Made by a program: the position numbers and the translations under genes. From positions 1-37,061 of IMG/VR virus record IMGVR_UViG_3300021141_000029: a stretch of 37,061 bases of DNA; one strand, written 5' to 3'. Positions 16,291 to 32,678 of the stretch are shown here, piece by piece. The stretch is from a virus. Position 1 is the stretch's first letter. Each line of letters begins with the position of its first letter. Under the pieces are notes generated by a model. That model saw only the letters and a list, made by a program, of their open reading frames with translations. It had not been told where the DNA came from and made no database searches.

Positions 16291-17195
16291 GTGATGAAGA
16301 GAACAACATGCCCGAAGGTCTGGAGGGTGGTGGTGGTTGGCATCATGACCCCGAGAAGGTCGCCGCTATTCAGTCCACCCTGCCCCAGCCAGTCTGGGGT
16401 GGCACACCCGCCGCAAGCCTGAGCGACTACCCGAAGGAAATCTTCGGGTGGCGACTGTGGAAGGAAGCCACCGGCACCGAGTGGCCTGTCCTCAACCAGG
16501 GACAGGTGGGCAGTTGCTGCTCGTTCGGTGCCAGCCACGCCGTCATGTACAGCCAAGCAGCTGAAGCCGTCATGGGGGATGAAGAGACTCCGCTTATTCC
16601 CTGCATGGAGTTCATCTACGGAGTTAGCCGCGTGCAGGTGGGTGGAGGTCAACTGGGCCGGGGAGACGGCTCCCTTGGCGTGTGGGTCGCCAAGGCTGTC
16701 AGGGACTATGGCATCCTGGAACAGGCCCAGCACGGGCAGTATGACTGCCGCAAGTACAACCAAGACCGATGCCGGGACTGGGGGTCCAGTGGACCTCCCC
16801 AAGAGTTACTCGGTGAGGCCCGCGACAACAAGGTCGGCGCAATCACCCAGATGAGATCCTTCGAGGATTGTGTTCAGGCCCTCGCCCAAGGTTATGGGGT
16901 GAACCTCTGTAGCCAGCAGGGTTTCTCCAGCACACGGGACGGACAAGGGTTCGCAGACCCGAAGGGTACTTGGTCCCACTCGATGGCCGCGATTGCCTAC
17001 CGTCTGGATCGGCCCGGGCTGTTCATCTGCAACTCTTGGGGCACGGCGTATTTCTCAGGTGGTCGATACCCTGACGACATGCCGCTCCAAGGGTTTTGGG
17101 CCGACAAGTCAGTTGTTGAACGAATGCTGGACTGTGGGGACTCGTGGTCTCACAGCAACGTGGATGGTTTCCCACTGAAGAAGCTGTCCTGGTGA
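16287..17195 (+). CDS. Papain-like (C1 family) cysteine peptidase
   Basis: The 302-aa protein has the papain-type catalytic signature. Gln71 in NQGQVGSC is the oxyanion residue, Cys77 the nucleophile, His231 in the WSHSM segment the general base, and Asn249 in the NSWG motif completes the triad. Cys78 takes the place of the usual Trp after the nucleophile. There is no signal peptide and the ~65 residues before the Gln are too short for a classic inhibitory propeptide. It would hydrolyse peptide bonds; the target could be host envelope protein, virion protein or a host factor. It follows the exported Pro-rich gene with a 4-base overlap. Phages seldom carry this family, and no standard endolysin is seen here, so a lysis or entry role is worth considering. 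Confidence 0.75.
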   Translation: MSDEENNMPEGLEGGGGWHHDPEKVAAIQSTLPQPVWGGTPAASLSDYPKEIFGWRLWKEATGTEWPVLNQGQVGSCCSFGASHAVMYSQAAEAVMGDEETPLIPCMEFIYGVSRVQVGGGQLGRGDGSLGVWVAKAVRDYGILEQAQHGQYDCRKYNQDRCRDWGSSGPPQELLGEARDNKVGAITQMRSFEDCVQALAQGYGVNLCSQQGFSSTRDGQGFADPKGTWSHSMAAIAYRLDRPGLFICNSWGTAYFSGGRYPDDMPLQGFWADKSVVERMLDCGDSWSHSNVDGFPLKKLSW

Positions 17196-18891: not shown

Positions 18892-20649
18892 ATGCTATCC
18901 TATGCTGGTGAACCACTACCACTTGTTACCGGTGAACTGAAGGGGTGGCTAGACTCGTACCTCTCCACTGCTGACCTGCGTATATCCGAACAGCGTCAGG
19001 CCACGATTGGCAGTCTGCCGTGTCTTCAGGGCATGGATCAGCCCGCAATGAGGCTAAGCCGTCTGAGTTGGCCAACCGGTCTGAGCCGGTACGCCAGCGC
19101 CCTTTTCTGCTGCACCTATTCGCAGCTAGACCGAATTCTGAGGGTGGTGGATACCCCCGGGGCCCAGCAACGACAGCCTGCTGACTTGAGGATCGGCAAG
19201 GACATCACGGTCAAAATGCACCTGCTGACCCCGGTGCAGGTCGCGGGCAAACCCTTGACTGGGGACGGACTACTGCCGGTTGATGTGGAGACTGACCCGG
19301 CTGGTAACTACAAGGACCCCGGCCAGCTATGGTTGCTCCCCTTGGTGGACGAGCGTTTTTTCCTCCTCGCCGGTTGCCTGCATGACATGAAGTCTTCCCT
19401 GACCTGGGAGGATTGGTTCAAGTCCGTCCACGAATCGACTTCAATCAACTGCACGGTGGATACCATCGATGCCAAGTTCGGCTACCCTGGCGGCTTGTTC
19501 TACGACTTACCCAAGGATTCCCCAGGCTTGCCCGTGCTGGCCGACAACGCGGCCTACTGCATCGGTCGGCGGTATGTGCGGCAACTGAGTGGTGACTACG
19601 CCCTGCAGACCTATGACAAGGCCCTGCCTCTGGTGACACCCGTCACAGGGTTTGGGGTGATTGCTGGATCTCGGAACAACCCTGCCCCCATCGTGCTGCC
19701 CAAGGGTGGAGCCTTCAGCATCTACGGGTCGGACACGGCAATCGATGTGGTGGCGGACACGCTGGACACTTGGCCCGGCCACACAAGGTGGCATGGCGGG
19801 CGCAACTTCCACCTTCGGTGCAAGGTCTCCGACACGGCCAAGGCTGAGGATTACGCCAAGGCTTTCCTGAAGGAGACCCTGAGATGGCGGTTCATCCACC
19901 AGGATGTGACGTTTGCGGACGCAAAGCCGTTCACCCTGACGGGTGGTGAAGACCGCCTCGAGATCACGGTCAACGCTGATTCGGTGACCACCAGGGTGTA
20001 TGCGCGGCATTCGGAGTGGCACGACACGCTGTCGGTTCGGTTCACCGAGACCTACAACGCCGAGGATTGTGAGGGGTGCGGTGGTGGTGGTGGTGGCACT
20101 GTGGCGGGCCCGGAAAACTGCCCGCGGGTGTCCCATGTCGGTTGCACCGCCGGGATTATGACCGTCGGCTACCAACTCGCCTGTGAGTCCATCCCGGACC
20201 CGGTGCAGGGTCCCCCGGCGGGCGGTCCCGTCGGCACCATCGTCATGTGGGGCACCTCCACCATCCCCAACGGTTGGCTGGAGTGCGACGGCAAGGAGTT
20301 TGACCCCACGGTCTTCCCTGAACTGTTCGATGTCCTGGGAGACCGGTATGTGCCGGACCTGCGGAACCAGTTCGTGCGAGGCAAGGGTGACAAGACTGGG
20401 GCGTTGCTGTCCAAGAAGGCATGGACGACAGGTATGCCCAAGACCCCGTTCAAGGCATCCGCCGCGGGCGGTCACGACCACTCTGGTGGCGTGATGCCGG
20501 GGAGCATGACGGGCAACACATCCCCTGGCGGTTTCATGCAGGGCCGGACCGGGCGTGAGGCGGACCATGTCCACACCATCACCGGGGGTGACACCGAGAC
20601 GGCCCCGGACCATGTGATCCTCCTCTATATCATCAAGGCGGAAATCTGA
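18892..20649 (+). CDS. Tail fibre/spike with C-terminal tail-collar domain
   Basis: ATG 18892 is chosen because GGAGGAG lies directly upstream; the frame is open for 75 more bases without a ribosome site. The first ~400 residues are an unrecognised beta-rich region. At about residues 390-440 comes a Cys/Gly-rich linker (CEGCGGGGGG, ENCPRVSHVGC). The last ~145 residues match the phage tail-collar / microcystin-dependent protein domain: GTIVMWGTSTIPNGWLECDGK, a YVPDLRNQFVRG segment, HDHSGG, DHVHTI and the closing HVILLYIIKAEI. Collar-domain proteins form receptor-binding fibre tips with metal-binding His residues. It leads a four-gene block of virion proteins ending at 24163 and overlaps the next start by one base. 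Confidence 0.8.
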   Translation: MLSYAGEPLPLVTGELKGWLDSYLSTADLRISEQRQATIGSLPCLQGMDQPAMRLSRLSWPTGLSRYASALFCCTYSQLDRILRVVDTPGAQQRQPADLRIGKDITVKMHLLTPVQVAGKPLTGDGLLPVDVETDPAGNYKDPGQLWLLPLVDERFFLLAGCLHDMKSSLTWEDWFKSVHESTSINCTVDTIDAKFGYPGGLFYDLPKDSPGLPVLADNAAYCIGRRYVRQLSGDYALQTYDKALPLVTPVTGFGVIAGSRNNPAPIVLPKGGAFSIYGSDTAIDVVADTLDTWPGHTRWHGGRNFHLRCKVSDTAKAEDYAKAFLKETLRWRFIHQDVTFADAKPFTLTGGEDRLEITVNADSVTTRVYARHSEWHDTLSVRFTETYNAEDCEGCGGGGGGTVAGPENCPRVSHVGCTAGIMTVGYQLACESIPDPVQGPPAGGPVGTIVMWGTSTIPNGWLECDGKEFDPTVFPELFDVLGDRYVPDLRNQFVRGKGDKTGALLSKKAWTTGMPKTPFKASAAGGHDHSGGVMPGSMTGNTSPGGFMQGRTGREADHVHTITGGDTETAPDHVILLYIIKAEI

Positions 20650-26407: not shown

Positions 26408-27000
26408 GCTGCCTCCCATGTGATTCCGATTCGTCGAACCTTTTCGCGGAGACGATCCACCGCGTAGCAGACTGCCTGCCGGGACATGCCCACCTTGGCA
26501 CCGGTTTCGGTCATCGATAGCCCTGCCATCAGGTGTTTGCAGATCTTCTGATCACGTTTGCTGATGCCTGACATCACCCTTGCCACGGTTGCCCGGTCAT
26601 GCTCCCGGCGTACCCACCCGAAGTGGTCACCAGAGCAGGGAATGACGTTGGTCAGGTCCTCGATTGAGACGGTAGTGGAAGCGCGGCATTGGGCCTCCGA
26701 GTGACGCATGAGTTGCGTCCGAACTGCCCGTGCCTGCCACAGCAACCATGTGGTGAACGCACCCTTAGTCTTGTCGTACTTGTAGCCAGCGTGAACCACC
26801 CTGATGGTCAGCTCCGAAACGAACTCCTCAGGGCTGATACCCAGCGGTGGGCGAACCTTGTGGGCGGCCCAGAACAGCAATGCCGGTTGCCGCTGTAGTC
26901 TCTCCCGGACCCGTTGCCGCCCCCACTGCTTCTGGGCTTTCGTCGGCGCAGCTGCAACCTGGATTCCATCTAGACCTGTTTTTTCAGCACCCATCAGCAC
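26404..27000 (-). CDS. Sigma-70-family-like transcription factor
   Basis: The 198-aa product has the two-domain layout of a small sigma factor. A region-2-like block spans about residues 57-100 (PEEFVSELTIRVVHAGYKYD, KGAFTTWLLWQARAVRTQLMRH). A C-terminal HTH block resembling region 4 spans about 146-198 (ISKRDQKICKHLMAGLSMTE, TGAKVGMSRQAVCYAVDRL). GTG 27000 has AGGAA 7 bases upstream; ATG 26994 is the alternative. It would steer host RNA polymerase to phage promoters, probably late genes, or act as an HTH regulator if region 2 is not functional. It is the first gene of the leftward operon, and its upstream region is shared with the divergent integrase and contains GTTGACAAG and a TGACA/TGTCA inverted repeat. 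Confidence 0.7.
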   Translation of the reverse strand: MLMGAEKTGLDGIQVAAAPTKAQKQWGRQRVRERLQRQPALLFWAAHKVRPPLGISPEEFVSELTIRVVHAGYKYDKTKGAFTTWLLWQARAVRTQLMRHSEAQCRASTTVSIEDLTNVIPCSGDHFGWVRREHDRATVARVMSGISKRDQKICKHLMAGLSMTETGAKVGMSRQAVCYAVDRLREKVRRIGITWEAA

Positions 27001-27116
27001 ACCCGGATTCCTGTTGTTTTCCGTACCAGCAACCCAAACTACCCCCCTGCCGCCGGGTTGACAAGATGACAATATGTCACTGGGATACTTGCTCACACCC
27101 AAACGGAGGAGACCCG

Positions 27117-27986
27117 ATGACTATTAGGGAATTGTTGACCCGGATGCTGGCGGATAGGACTGACCTGAGAAGGACCACCAGGATCAGCTACCGGGTGGAA
27201 CTCCAACGGCTGGCCGACCTGTTCGATGTGGAACCTGAAACCCTGACCGCACCCAAGTTGGAGCGTTGGGCTGGCTCAAACCAGCTACGCCGCCGCACCC
27301 TGAAGACCCTGAAGAGCTTGCTGAACTGGGCGATGCGAGTCGGGCTGGTTGGGGCAAACCCGGTGGCTCCATGCAAGGGGCCCAAGGTCAAAACCTTGAC
27401 CAATCGCCCAGGCATTCACCGCGCATTGGAACTGCCCGCAGCATTCAGTAAGCCACGGGACAGGGCCCTCGTCACCTTCCTGCTTGATTCAGGCCTGAGG
27501 ATCCGCGAGGCATTGGGCCTAACATGGGACCGGGTGGACCTAACCAACCGCTCGGTGTTGGTGGACAGGGCGTTGGACACCCTGGGCCAGTTCCAAGGGC
27601 TCAAGGTGGATGGCGCCGAAAGGGACTTGATCTTGTCCGCCCGGACGGTGGCACTTCTGCGGGATATCCAGCCAAAGCTGAACCGCGGACCGGTGTTCCG
27701 CAACCGATTCGGTGGTCACCTCGATGCCCACAACTGGCACTGTCGGGCTTGGAAACCCGCCCTCCAACGGGCCGGGATATACCTCAGAATCCACGATCTA
27801 CGCCATGCCTGTGCCAGCCTCTTGCTTGAGGCGGGCTTGCCCATTGCCGCAGTCCAGCAACGCCTAGGACACTCCTCCATCGAAACCACCATGCGCCACT
27901 ACGCCCGCAGGTCGGCCAAGTTGAGCCGGGATGCCGCGTCCGCCATGGATGGGATTCTGGGTGGCCTAGGCAACACGGATTCCTGA
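27117..27986 (+). CDS. int: Tyrosine recombinase (integrase)
   Basis: The 289-aa protein starts at ATG 27117 behind GGAGGAG; the frame is open upstream but that part is not coding-like. Residues 1-90 form the core-binding (SAM-like) domain. The catalytic domain shows Arg128 in SGLRIREALGL, His226 and Arg229 in HDLRHA, His252 in RLGHSS and the nucleophile Tyr262 in MRHYAR; Lys is probably in the GLKVDGAERD beta hairpin. It integrates phage DNA at a host att site; the tRNA-Arg fragment and CCGGACAC repeats just downstream are the likely attP. No large N-terminal arm-binding domain is visible, so arm recognition may be limited or use the first ~30 residues. A terminator follows 82 bases after the stop. 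Confidence 0.9.
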   Translation: MTIRELLTRMLADRTDLRRTTRISYRVELQRLADLFDVEPETLTAPKLERWAGSNQLRRRTLKTLKSLLNWAMRVGLVGANPVAPCKGPKVKTLTNRPGIHRALELPAAFSKPRDRALVTFLLDSGLRIREALGLTWDRVDLTNRSVLVDRALDTLGQFQGLKVDGAERDLILSARTVALLRDIQPKLNRGPVFRNRFGGHLDAHNWHCRAWKPALQRAGIYLRIHDLRHACASLLLEAGLPIAAVQQRLGHSSIETTMRHYARRSAKLSRDAASAMDGILGGLGNTDS

Positions 27987-28994: not shown

Positions 28995-29081
28995 ACTTGA
29001 CAGGTTGACAAGTCACGGCTTGCAAACCTGCCTGCCTGAACCCAGAATCCTGTGACCACCTGTACCCAGTCACCGTGACTG
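28995..29081. promoter_or_regulatory. Divergent regulatory region with two palindromes
   Basis: ACTTGACAGGTTGACAAGT (28995-29013) is an imperfect palindrome (7 of 9 pairs) containing GTTGACAAG, which recurs upstream of the integrase and of the 36412 gene. CAGTCAC/GTGACTG (29067-29081) is a perfect 7-bp inverted repeat with a single central C. They lie between the RHH gene and the RecT-like gene and are likely operators; TTGACA at 29005-29010 could be a -35 element. Confidence 0.5.
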
Positions 29082-29125
29082 AATACGCCGGTTGGTACGC
29101 TAGTGAACATGTTTGGGAAAAAAAT

Positions 29126-29776
29126 ATGAATCAACCTGTCACCACGGATTTGGCCATCGTGCCGAGTCCGCAACCGAGTAACCAGGAGTCGAAACCGGCT
29201 CCTACCGCCAACGAGCTAGTCGCGGCCAACGCAGTCAAGAGCGGCATGTACAAGGGCCTGACGGTCAGCACGGCCCTGATGATTCTGCAAATGGCCGAGG
29301 AGCTTCAGATTCCTGCCGCCCAAGCCCTTGGCAGCATCCACATCGTGCAGGGCAAGCTGGTGCTGTCTGCCACCCTGCTGGGTGCGTTGGTGCAGCGTTC
29401 AGGGAGCTTTGACTACCGGGTCACAGAAAACACGGACAAGGCCGCCGAGGTGGAAATCTTGCGCCGGGTGGATGGTGCGTGGGCATCGGTTGGCAAATTC
29501 CGGTTCAGCATTGAGATGGCCAAGCGGGCTGAGTTGCTTGGCAAGTCCGTCTGGAAACAGTACCCCGAGGCGATGCTGTTCTCGCGGGCCCTGACCGCAG
29601 CAATCCGCATGTTCGCGCCTTCACTCACAGTGGTCGCCTGCTACACGCCTGAGGAGGCTGAGACATTTGACAGCCCGCAGCGTTTTGGTGGTCAACAACC
29701 CACCCGTCGCATGACGGAATCAGAAGCGGGCCAGATGGCCAGCATGGTCAACGGCGTGCGTGAGGCCAACTCCTAA
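29126..29776 (+). CDS. RecT-like single-strand annealing protein
   Basis: The 216-aa protein starts at ATG 29126, preceded by TGGGA. It resembles a branch of the RecT/Red-beta superfamily. Central blocks include GMYKGLTVSTALMILQMAEEL, PAAQALGSIHIVQGKLVLSA (typical 'known from phage recombinases' beta-hairpin) and TLLGALVQRSGSFDYRVTE. Later come VWKQYPEAMLFSRALTAAIR, with the invariant-looking W-x-x-(Y)P-x-x-M-x-x-(A/S)RA, and VVACYTPEEAE. Such proteins anneal complementary single strands made by a 5'-3' exonuclease; the YqaJ nuclease at 25844-26407 is the natural partner. It heads the rightward early operon, behind palindromic operators, and is followed by a large hairpin. Confidence 0.75.
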   Translation: MNQPVTTDLAIVPSPQPSNQESKPAPTANELVAANAVKSGMYKGLTVSTALMILQMAEELQIPAAQALGSIHIVQGKLVLSATLLGALVQRSGSFDYRVTENTDKAAEVEILRRVDGAWASVGKFRFSIEMAKRAELLGKSVWKQYPEAMLFSRALTAAIRMFAPSLTVVACYTPEEAETFDSPQRFGGQQPTRRMTESEAGQMASMVNGVREANS

Positions 29777-30868: not shown

Positions 30869-31037
30869 TGAAGCAACTGCCTTGGCCGAACTCGGCCTGC
30901 TCGTGGAGAGGACGCAGCAGGTTGAGTTGGCCCGGGCGGCCCTCCTGGGCGTCATCACCGGCCATATCAAGGCCGAGGTTGGTGGCCCCCTGTGGGAGCG
31001 GTGTGTGGAAATCATCACGACCACAAGTCGTGAATGA
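30858..31037 (+). CDS. Small helical protein (59 aa)
   Basis: The frame encodes a compact helical protein (LSPDEATALAELGLLVERTQ, ELARAALLGVITGHI, WERCVEIITTTSRE). TTG 30858 has AGGAG about 8 bases upstream and overlaps the previous gene by 11 bases; ATG 30822 is a longer alternative without a site. It ends 3 bases before the GGC pentamer array. Too short for a functional call. Confidence 0.45.
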   Translation: MSPDEATALAELGLLVERTQQVELARAALLGVITGHIKAEVGGPLWERCVEIITTTSRE

Positions 31038-31040
31038 GCC

Positions 31041-31160
31041 TTGGCAGGGCATGGCAAGGCGGTGCAATGCGGGGCATGGCAAGGCTAGGAGCGGCATGGC
31101 TCGGCATGGCCGGGCTGGGCTGGGCATGGCCGGGCTCGGCACGGCGGGGCGAGGCAAGGT
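31041..31160 (+). repeat. Period-5 NNGGC array A (24 units)
   Basis: From 31041 to 31160 the sequence divides into 24 consecutive pentamers, and 20 of them end in GGC (for example ATGGC, AAGGC, CGGGC, TGGGC). The exceptions are GGTGC, AATGC, TAGGA and the last unit AAGGT. The register never slips across 120 bases. Translation gives only low-complexity Gly/Ala/Trp/Arg sequences in all frames, so it is not a gene. It runs directly into structured RNA element A. Confidence 0.85.
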
Positions 31161-31218
31161 GGTTGAACTTAGCGGCATCTCGGGTTGCAAGCGCCCGGAC
31201 AACCTATCCCGAAAGGGA
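31161..31218 (+). ncRNA. Structured RNA element, copy A
   Basis: P1 pairs GGTTG (31161-31165) with CAACC (31200-31204). P2 pairs TCGGG (31180-31184) with CCCGG (31194-31198). Between P1 and P2 lies a one-sided joining strand with ACTTAGCGGCA; the P2 loop contains TGCAAGC. CTT-A-GC in the joining strand can pair with GCAAG in the loop, giving a pseudoknot with one bulged A. P3 is TCCC/GGGA (31207-31218) closed by GAAA. Copy B has the same unpaired sequences but different, still complementary, stems. Transcription is inferred from its place inside the early operon. Confidence 0.65.
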
Positions 31219-31221
31219 AGC

Positions 31222-31281
31222 GCGGCAGGGAGTGGCTGGGCTTGGCGTGGCTTGGCTGGGATTGGCTGGGCAAGGCAAGGT
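31222..31281 (+). repeat. Period-5 NNGGC array B (12 units)
   Basis: Twelve pentamers in one register (31222-31281), nine ending in GGC (GTGGC, TGGGC, TTGGC, AAGGC and others), ending again in AAGGT just before RNA element B. It is shorter and more T-rich than array A, so the two were not copied very recently. Confidence 0.8.
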
Positions 31282-31341
31282 GGTCGGACTTAGCGGCACT
31301 GGAGTGCAAGCCTCCAGACGACCTATCCCCCACTTCGGGGG
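31282..31341 (+). ncRNA. Structured RNA element, copy B
   Basis: P1 pairs GGTCG (31282-31286) with CGACC (31319-31323). P2 pairs CTGGAG (31299-31304) with CTCCAG (31312-31317) around TGCAAGC. P3 pairs CCCCC (31327-31331) with GGGGG (31337-31341). The joining strand GACTTAGCGGCA and the loop are as in copy A, while P1 changes a T-A pair to C-G and P2 changes at several pairs with complementarity kept. It ends 30 bases before the start of the next gene and could act in that gene's leader. Confidence 0.65.
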
Positions 31342-31371: not shown

Positions 31372-32004
31372 ATGGCAGTGGTCGAAGCGGTCAAGAGCGA
31401 CACCAGGACAAAGATGATTCGGAGGCGTGTATGTCTGCGCGGGATCAAAGCGGCGATGTTCGACAGATACCCGGGCGACAATCAGACCAAGCTGGAGTGG
31501 TGGCAGAAGGTCTATCTGCACCCCAAGAGGGGGGCAATCTCTTTGCCAGCGATGAACATCAGTTCGTTGTTATCTGCCCACAATACCAACTCCGCCCCAA
31601 AACGCCTGCGTGACAAGCGGAAGTACAAGGATATCGCTAACGCCTGCCTGAGCTTTGTGATGATCTCGGCGGAAGACGGCGGTGACTACATCCCCTTTTT
31701 GCGTGACGGCAAACCCATCCACATGGGAACCATCGCTCCCAACCAGTCCGAGGACCCACTGTCCGGGATCAGTCTGCACCGTATCGTGGCGCGGCTGGAC
31801 AAGGGTATTCCCAACCCGAAGGAGCGGCCCCTCCTCCCTTGTCCGTGGGAACTGCGTTTCATCCTGGAGATCATCCCCAACCGGGAGATCAAGGAACAAG
31901 AAATCAAGAACCTGATTGAGGAGGCCGGTCTGGCGATTGGCATCGGAACCTTCCGCGGTGTACACGGCAAGTATGTCGTGGATGAGTGGTCTGAGCTTCC
32001 ATGA
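31372..32004 (+). CDS. Unrecognised early protein (210 aa)
   Basis: ATG 31372 has GAGG about 6 bases upstream and lies 30 bases after the second structured RNA element; the frame extends to 31345 without a ribosome site. The product is basic at the N-terminus (TRTKMIRRRVCLRGIKAAMFD) and contains mixed alpha/beta segments (LEWWQKVYLHPKRGAISLPA, YKDIANACLSFVMISAEDGGD). The C-terminal part has a helix and strand (IKEQEIKNLIEEAGLAIGIG, GKYVVDEWSEL). I recognise no catalytic motif. Its position between recombination and nuclease genes suggests a DNA-related early function, and the RNA elements in its leader suggest post-transcriptional control. Confidence 0.6.
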   Translation: MAVVEAVKSDTRTKMIRRRVCLRGIKAAMFDRYPGDNQTKLEWWQKVYLHPKRGAISLPAMNISSLLSAHNTNSAPKRLRDKRKYKDIANACLSFVMISAEDGGDYIPFLRDGKPIHMGTIAPNQSEDPLSGISLHRIVARLDKGIPNPKERPLLPCPWELRFILEIIPNREIKEQEIKNLIEEAGLAIGIGTFRGVHGKYVVDEWSELP

Positions 32005-32141: not shown

Positions 32142-32678
32142 ATGATGAAGCCACATCCGACATTTGAACGCCTGCATGAGGTGTTTGTTTATGAGGCGGA
32201 AACAGGACTGCTGTTGTGGAGGATCCGAGCTTCACAAAGCATTCTTCCTGGAATGCCTGCGGGAACCATAGACCGCAAGGGCTACCGCGTTACTTGTTTG
32301 GACCGCATGTTCCTTAAAAATCACCGGATCATCTGGGCCATGTACCACGGCGAGTGGCCTGAGGATGGCATGGTGGTGAACCACAAGGATCATAACCCTT
32401 CCAACAACCGGATTGAGAATCTGGAACTAGCTACTGCCGCACAAAATAATTGTCACAGGTCTGGCCCGACATCGTTGAGTACCAGTGGTGTGCGTGGAGT
32501 TTCCAAGGTTAAACAGACTGGGAAGTGGCGTGCCGCTATCACGGCCAACAAGAAGAGCATCTACCTAGGTGTCTTCAAGACGATTGAGGAGGCCATTGCC
32601 GCCCGTGAGGCAGCGGGCCTGAAATACCACGGCCAGCACCAGGGCAGGTTATTCAAGGAGGCAACAACCAATGGGTAA
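32142..32678 (+). CDS. HNH homing endonuclease with AP2 domain
   Basis: The 178-aa protein starts with a short N-terminal motif (FVYEAETGLLLWRIR) common in this family. An HNH core at about residues 60-100 follows (NHRIIWAMYHGEWPE, VNHKDHNPSNNRIENLELAT), with the His-Asn-His metal and catalytic residues. An AP2-like DNA-binding domain lies at about 115-165 (SGVRGVSKVKQTGKWRAAI, YLGVFKTIEEAIAAREAA). Such free-standing enzymes cut a target site and spread by repair. It overlaps the next gene by 8 bases. The 136-base spacer before it (32005-32141) has a CCCGG/CCGGG hairpin and no gene. A paralogue sits at 36412-36903. Confidence 0.85.
   Translation: MMKPHPTFERLHEVFVYEAETGLLLWRIRASQSILPGMPAGTIDRKGYRVTCLDRMFLKNHRIIWAMYHGEWPEDGMVVNHKDHNPSNNRIENLELATAAQNNCHRSGPTSLSTSGVRGVSKVKQTGKWRAAITANKKSIYLGVFKTIEEAIAAREAAGLKYHGQHQGRLFKEATTNG

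Follow-up and report, generated by a model that had tools for sequence, protein, structure and literature searches.

RNase P cleaves model hairpins made of an acceptor stem, a T-stem and a T-loop, shows NAIM interference at G19, G53 and A58, and works at a T-loop-to-cleavage distance of 12 bp (PMC11143913). The enzyme is also reported to recognise the leader/acceptor junction and the D/T-loop region (PMC12630138). Processed tRNA mimics also reside within longer transcripts, for example mascRNA and the plant t-elements (PMC4919922). Here we analyzed a stretch of viral DNA of 37,061 nucleotides (positions 1 to 37,061 of IMG/VR record IMGVR_UViG_3300021141_000029, hereafter the window), in which an initial annotation had described two tandem RNA elements that fold alike, at 31161-31218 and 31282-31341. 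Both were confirmed on the + strand, and we assigned the following parts to them and their surroundings (single residues in tRNA numbering):

31040-31160, + strand: array of GGCNN pentanucleotides 5' of copy 1, with up to 13 units in an unbroken run
31161-31204, + strand: tRNA-like element copy 1 (covariance match, E 4.8e-8, R1)
31161-31165 (GGTTG) with 31200-31204 (CAACC), + strand: acceptor-like stem (P1) of copy 1
31166-31177, + strand: D-loop-like strand of copy 1 (A18 at 31171, G19 at 31172)
31178-31179, + strand: 2-nt bulge of copy 1
31180-31185 (TCGGGT) with 31193-31198 (GCCCGG), + strand: T-stem (P2) of copy 1
31186-31192, + strand: T-loop TGCAAGC of copy 1
31205-31207, + strand: 3' tail of copy 1 (N73=T, N74=A, N75=U)
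31207-31218, + strand: hairpin TCCC-GAAA-GGGA directly 3' of copy 1
31220-31280, + strand: GGCNN-type array separating copies 1 and 2
31282-31323, + strand: tRNA-like element copy 2 (E 1.1e-15, from a covariance model seeded with this same sequence)
31282-31286 (GGTCG) with 31319-31323 (CGACC), + strand: acceptor-like stem (P1) of copy 2
31287/31318, + strand: g.a mismatch of copy 2
31288-31298, + strand: D-loop-like strand ACTTAGCGGCA of copy 2 (A18 at 31292, G19 at 31293)
31299-31304 (CTGGAG) with 31312-31317 (CTCCAG), + strand: T-stem (P2) of copy 2 (G53 at 31304, C61 at 31312)
31305-31311, + strand: T-loop TGCAAGC of copy 2 (T54 at 31305, G55 at 31306, C56 at 31307, A58 at 31309)
31324-31326, + strand: 3' tail of copy 2 (N73=T, N74=A, N75=U)
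31327-31341, + strand: hairpin CCCCC-ACTTC-GGGGG 3' of copy 2
31372-32004, + strand: downstream gene, 210 aa, weak match to phrog_4652

Each copy has an inner stem of 6 bp, a loop of 7 nt and 3' strands that are contiguous except for one mismatched base. As the initial annotation had noted, the 11-nt joining strand and the TGCAAGC loop are the same in both copies, and a third hairpin follows each of them. Copy 1, in which a T.G pair closes the T-loop and which stands outside the 20-element alignment described below, lies 123 nt downstream of the stop codon at 31037, and 48 nt separate the end of copy 2 from the start codon at 31372. Since the folding energy of the single sequences was no better than that of shuffles (z +0.80 and -1.24), support for the fold comes from comparison and not from energy.

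The elements are not confined to the window phage: scans and covariance models located the fold in at least 11 unrelated phage or prophage lineages, with P1/P2 pairing kept. An exact-core scan of IMG/VR returned a sister phage (L010) with two copies and a third cut off at the contig end, together with two unrelated stem sets (L017/L022 and L024); a bacterial genome scan added a Planctomycetota MAG (L253), in which a covariance model revealed a second copy with the shorter linker ACAAGCGGCA. Relaxing the linker to AC-N(1-3)-AGCGGCA recovered many phage members (L469, L483, L487, L490/L508, L495 and L496). Strict-core searches varying single core positions yielded no new members, two Planctomycetota scans nothing beyond the MAG already found, and INPHARED DNA searches no near relative of the window phage; a match in one Planctomycetota genome (G171) looked spurious, with the core deleted, and was discarded. 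The shared core is A-C-n-AGCGGCA/UGCAAGC, around which the stems covary freely. About 120 records that had not been picked for real elements contained one clear element (G470, U55 type) and two weak matches, one of them a Lactobacillus repeat. This near-identical repeat, CCCCACGCAAGCGGCATCCCCGTGCAAGCCGGAGAGTGGGG, was found in different Lactobacillus-like contexts (L472:8167, L501:6016, L505 (rc 2872) and L544:1501-1543), in three of them ahead of the same small secreted-protein-like gene; it matches only with a stem mismatch, was kept out of the alignments, and may be either a mobile repeat or a diverged member of the family.

The pattern that had been taken as a sign of selection on an RNA fold, bases in P1 and P2 changing while their pairing is kept, extends to the wider family. 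Among four unrelated members, 11 of 13 pairs are changed on both sides with 96% paired, a result matched by 0 of 500 shuffles. In the alignment of 20 elements, standard pairs fill 96% of the 260 pair cells, 12 of the 13 pairs covary, both sides are changed in 113 cells (37 expected), and the covariation score is 1.10 versus 0.21. This covariation strongly supports selection on the fold, and establishes both the fold and its conservation. A strict T-loop descriptor, which required a T-stem of 6 bp, no fewer than 5 of the 6 acceptor pairs and a linker of 9-13, matched 29 elements, whereas 119 permuted loops averaged 2.9 matches in this DNA, a contrast that is inflated for TGCAAGC because the DNA was partly chosen by that loop. 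The top permuted loop reached 21 and the next two 13 and 11; the count of 21 presumably belongs to the swap of the first two loop positions, which matches TTCRA loops too. The TTCRA elements of phages G443 and G470 lie outside the TGCAAGC selection, and over 36 kb of G443 the coding strand carries ten perfect 12-bp elements and the opposite strand none. Decayed tRNA genes, or a DNA-level hairpin of recombination or transposition rather than a functional RNA, would fit the tRNA-like sequence, the sporadic distribution and the repeats in one phage, but are highly improbable in view of the compensatory changes seen everywhere, the G.T wobbles in the coding-strand sense and the coding-strand location of all ten G443 copies; moreover, decay would not yield an exact 12-bp stack.

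The fold resembles a pared-down tRNA. P1 corresponds to the acceptor stem and P2 with its 7-nt loop to the T-arm, and P2' runs directly into P1', giving a coaxial 12-bp stack of 6+6 bp, the length of the tRNA ruler, with no linker between the two 3' strands and an outermost 13th pair that is open in 9 of 20 elements. A linker of 10-17 nt (mostly given as 10-15) takes the place of the D- and anticodon arms. Among the 20 elements no columns are invariant except the tRNA positions G19, G53, T54, C56, A58 and C61; position 57 is always a purine and position 60 always a pyrimidine, and the T-loop rule T54-N-C56-R57-A58-N-Y60 with a closing G53-C61 pair holds in all 20. The G19-C56 contact (31293-31307 in copy 2) is likewise kept in every one. 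Part of the pseudoknot originally proposed between joining strand and loop (CTT-A-GC with GCAAG) survives in these comparisons: the adjoining G:C is kept in 20/20, but the CTT:AAG half was rejected, as most relatives are without CTT and its second T is present in only 4/20.

Positions 18 and 55 covary, A18 occurring with G55 in 15/15 elements and G18 with U55 in 5/5 (Fisher 6e-5, a value inflated because several elements share one phage), and the G55/A18 pair is non-canonical for a tRNA elbow. Some gene gaps of G443 contain the loops TTCGAGC, TTCAAGC, TTCGAGT or TTCGATT, that is, a tRNA T-loop. A long-form element of the same phage (minus strand, start near 16540, L527) retains the TGCAAGC T-loop and carries a 50-nt insert with a D-arm-like and an anticodon-arm-like hairpin, and the presence of AGCGG in the loop of the D-arm-like hairpin supports this motif as the D-loop partner. 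With neither an anticodon arm nor a D stem, the element itself cannot decode. We conclude that the elements are very probably tRNA mimics of acceptor stem, T-arm and elbow without an anticodon, as judged from sequence comparison. T-loops are also present in riboswitches and in RNase P RNA, and the strict core AC-n-AGCGGCA/TGCAAGC of most members could define a new class of compact riboswitch or self-cleaving ribozyme in which the motif serves purposes unrelated to tRNA function. We regard this as unlikely: within one phage the core becomes canonical TTCGAGC/TTCAAGC with a matching GG in the D-loop strand, the 12-bp stack with its P2'-P1' continuity is exact, no gene class recurs beside the elements, and none of them matches an Rfam riboswitch or ribozyme.

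An Rfam scan of the window produced no family match, including tRNA (RF00005) and mascRNA-menRNA (RF01684), no family reached threshold on the family members, and ARAGORN reported 0 tRNAs in the window and detected none of the family elements. The initial statement that no known riboswitch or ribozyme was recognisable thus agrees with Rfam, although the tRNA mimicry had escaped notice. The highest scores were those of two G443 elements against RF01684 (29.7 bits, E=0.005, and 19.8 bits, E=2; gathering score 42.5) and of the second G470 element against RF00005 (26.7 bits; gathering score 29), and because both thresholds were missed, the elements are filed as neither tRNA nor mascRNA. Twister-sister, whose terminal loop we take to be similar to that of the element, was dismissed since Rfam gave no support and the remainder of the fold does not fit. 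Adjoining the tRNA-like array of G443, a sub-threshold match to the HDV-F-prausnitzii ribozyme lies at L512:2613-2676 on the - strand (G443 ~19439-19502; 29.8 bits, E=0.08). Elements of this type were not found described for phages in open-licence papers; by this limited literature and Rfam they are new, while their kind, processed tRNA mimics, is known.

Several further arrangements depart from the common form. In phage G447 the T-arm is duplicated internally (L508:1187-1250, CGGTGCAAGCCCGTG twice) and the acceptor stem pairs across the duplication. Units at L123:2240-2375, where two stand in tandem, and at L294:2413-2460 are tRNA-like, with canonical T-loops, no anticodon arm and mini D-hairpins (GCA-GGTT-TGC and CGG-TAGG-CCG). 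Cultivated L. casei phages such as phiAT3 have a different 12-bp structure with the T-like loop TCCGATT in the gap that follows the major tail protein, at the same place as the L495 element; it is no more than suggestive, because it is near-identical across all eight phages examined and has a low model score.

The elements are intergenic. They typically lie ~7-33 nt past the upstream stop codon and mostly 21-75 nt ahead of the next start, on the coding strand. G443 has its ten elements in a 6-kb operon, between successive genes, close to one for each gap. In other phages an element stands alone or most gene boundaries have one. Many elements, though not all, have a hairpin on their 3' side (mean z -1.2 over the 40 nt that follow). 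The downstream genes are unrelated and include primase-helicase-like, SprT-like and tail genes and small unknowns (neighbor names were read from translations unless stated otherwise). Elbow and acceptor mimicry in several copies per phage could also be expected of decoy tRNAs that soak up host tRNA-binding factors or tRNA-cutting defence enzymes; we consider such a role very unlikely, given that there is no anticodon for anticodon nucleases to act on, that the sites are gene boundaries and not tRNA clusters, and that most phages have few copies.

At the window locus, the initial annotation had raised the possibility of a tandem regulatory RNA in the 31372 gene leader. As a gene-specific element this is not supported: the element is absent from 46 phage records, nearly all of which have a relative of the gene, and it precedes unrelated genes elsewhere, so that a gene-specific riboswitch was rejected. 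An uncut cis-acting leader or 3'-UTR element, with an elbow-binding protein or RNA or a non-cutting RNase P tuning the translation or stability of the neighboring message, would suit the position shortly ahead of start codons, the hairpin that is often next, and an elbow conserved though no CCA is encoded. We nonetheless consider it rather doubtful, as the genes downstream differ among phages, relatives of the window's downstream gene are without the element, and ten copies in one operon better suit general processing.

What relatives of the 31372 gene often share is the GGCNN array, in which both window copies are embedded. At least five consecutive units were found 5' of the 31372-type gene in 37/61 relatives compared to 1/131 random viral loci (arrays precede the homologous gene in L386, L388, L389, L397, L399, L421 and L437), and the tRNA-like element was absent in all tested array-bearing relatives. 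Array and element are separable, because these relatives often have arrays without the element, and the array is probably a separate feature, whose GG-N3-GG spacing would be compatible with two-layer G-quadruplexes. Immediately downstream of the 31372 gene, 32142-32678 encodes a protein with HNH_3 and weak AP2 domains, likely a homing endonuclease. From the tyrosine integrase at 26847-27986 and the RecT-like annealing protein at 29075-29776, the window is probably a temperate phage in which recombination genes adjoin the elements.

As the best explanation, we propose that the elements are minimal tRNA mimics that act as punctuation in phage transcripts and are cut by host RNase P and/or RNase Z, a reading to which we give an even chance. 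It draws on the elbow residues, the ruler length, the RNase P hairpin data and the processed mascRNA and t-elements. We infer that the elements are transcribed at gene boundaries as "tRNA punctuation" to the benefit of the phage. The D-loop-like strand would dock on the T-loop via G19-C56 to form a tRNA elbow, RNase P would cut on the 5' side of the acceptor stem (predicted sites just before 31161 and 31282), RNase Z would cut after the discriminator (predicted after 31205 and 31324), or both would act, and the cuts would separate the messages, giving the upstream RNA a defined 3' end and the downstream RNA a new 5' end that is often hairpin-led.

Several observations count against processing. 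Beyond the stem, the tail mostly reads N-(C/A)-U, U75 being present in 23/26 elements (14/17 outside G443), and there is no CCA or 3' RCCA, an end that RNase P prefers, albeit not absolutely. The first position of the acceptor stem shows no preference for G1, P1 is short in both window copies (5 bp plus a mismatch), copy 1 contains a 2-nt bulge, and matches occur in only ~1-3% of random phage records. The tRNA elbow is also bound by factors other than RNase P and RNase Z, so its conserved residues do not single out these enzymes. The missing CCA, the unconstrained N1 and this shared elbow limit our confidence in the function to the midpoint.

If the proposal is true, phages hold an unrecognised RNA-processing code of gene-boundary tRNA mimics that neither tRNA finders nor Rfam detect, nature uses the minimal RNase P substrate known for many years from in vitro work, phage mRNA maturation is tied to host tRNA enzymes, and a portable processing part of 41-44 nt is at hand. 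The natural G55/A18 elbow variant offers a test of how the D-loop/T-loop lock forms.

Compared to described systems, the phage elements share with canonical tRNA (RF00005) the universally conserved T-arm residues and G19-C56, but are without D stem, anticodon arm and CCA. The phage P1/P7 C4 antisense RNA precursor is also a phage RNA processed by host RNase P (PMC11143913), with a different structure and role. AT1-type RNase P model hairpins have the same acceptor stem, T-stem, T-loop and 12 bp and are cleaved (PMC11143913), whereas the phage elements, known here from sequence, are natural, add a D-loop-like strand expected to restore the elbow, and have no RCCA end. The mascRNA/menRNA family (RF01684), which serves MALAT1/MENbeta 3' processing and is cut by RNase P and RNase Z (PMC4919922), likewise combines a tRNA-like acceptor and T-arm without a working anticodon; mascRNA keeps a D-arm and remnants of the anticodon region, whereas the elements described here have a short linker and occur several per operon in phages. 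Mitochondrial tRNA punctuation and plant mitochondrial t-elements similarly place tRNA-shaped units between protein genes of one transcript, whereas the phage units are in dsDNA phages, have no anticodon arm, and are predicted to be processed. It may equally well be true as not that several unrelated phages punctuate their genes with anticodon-less tRNA mimics bearing a G55/A18 elbow variant and rely on host RNase P and/or RNase Z to cleave their polycistronic messages, as a phage counterpart of mitochondrial punctuation.
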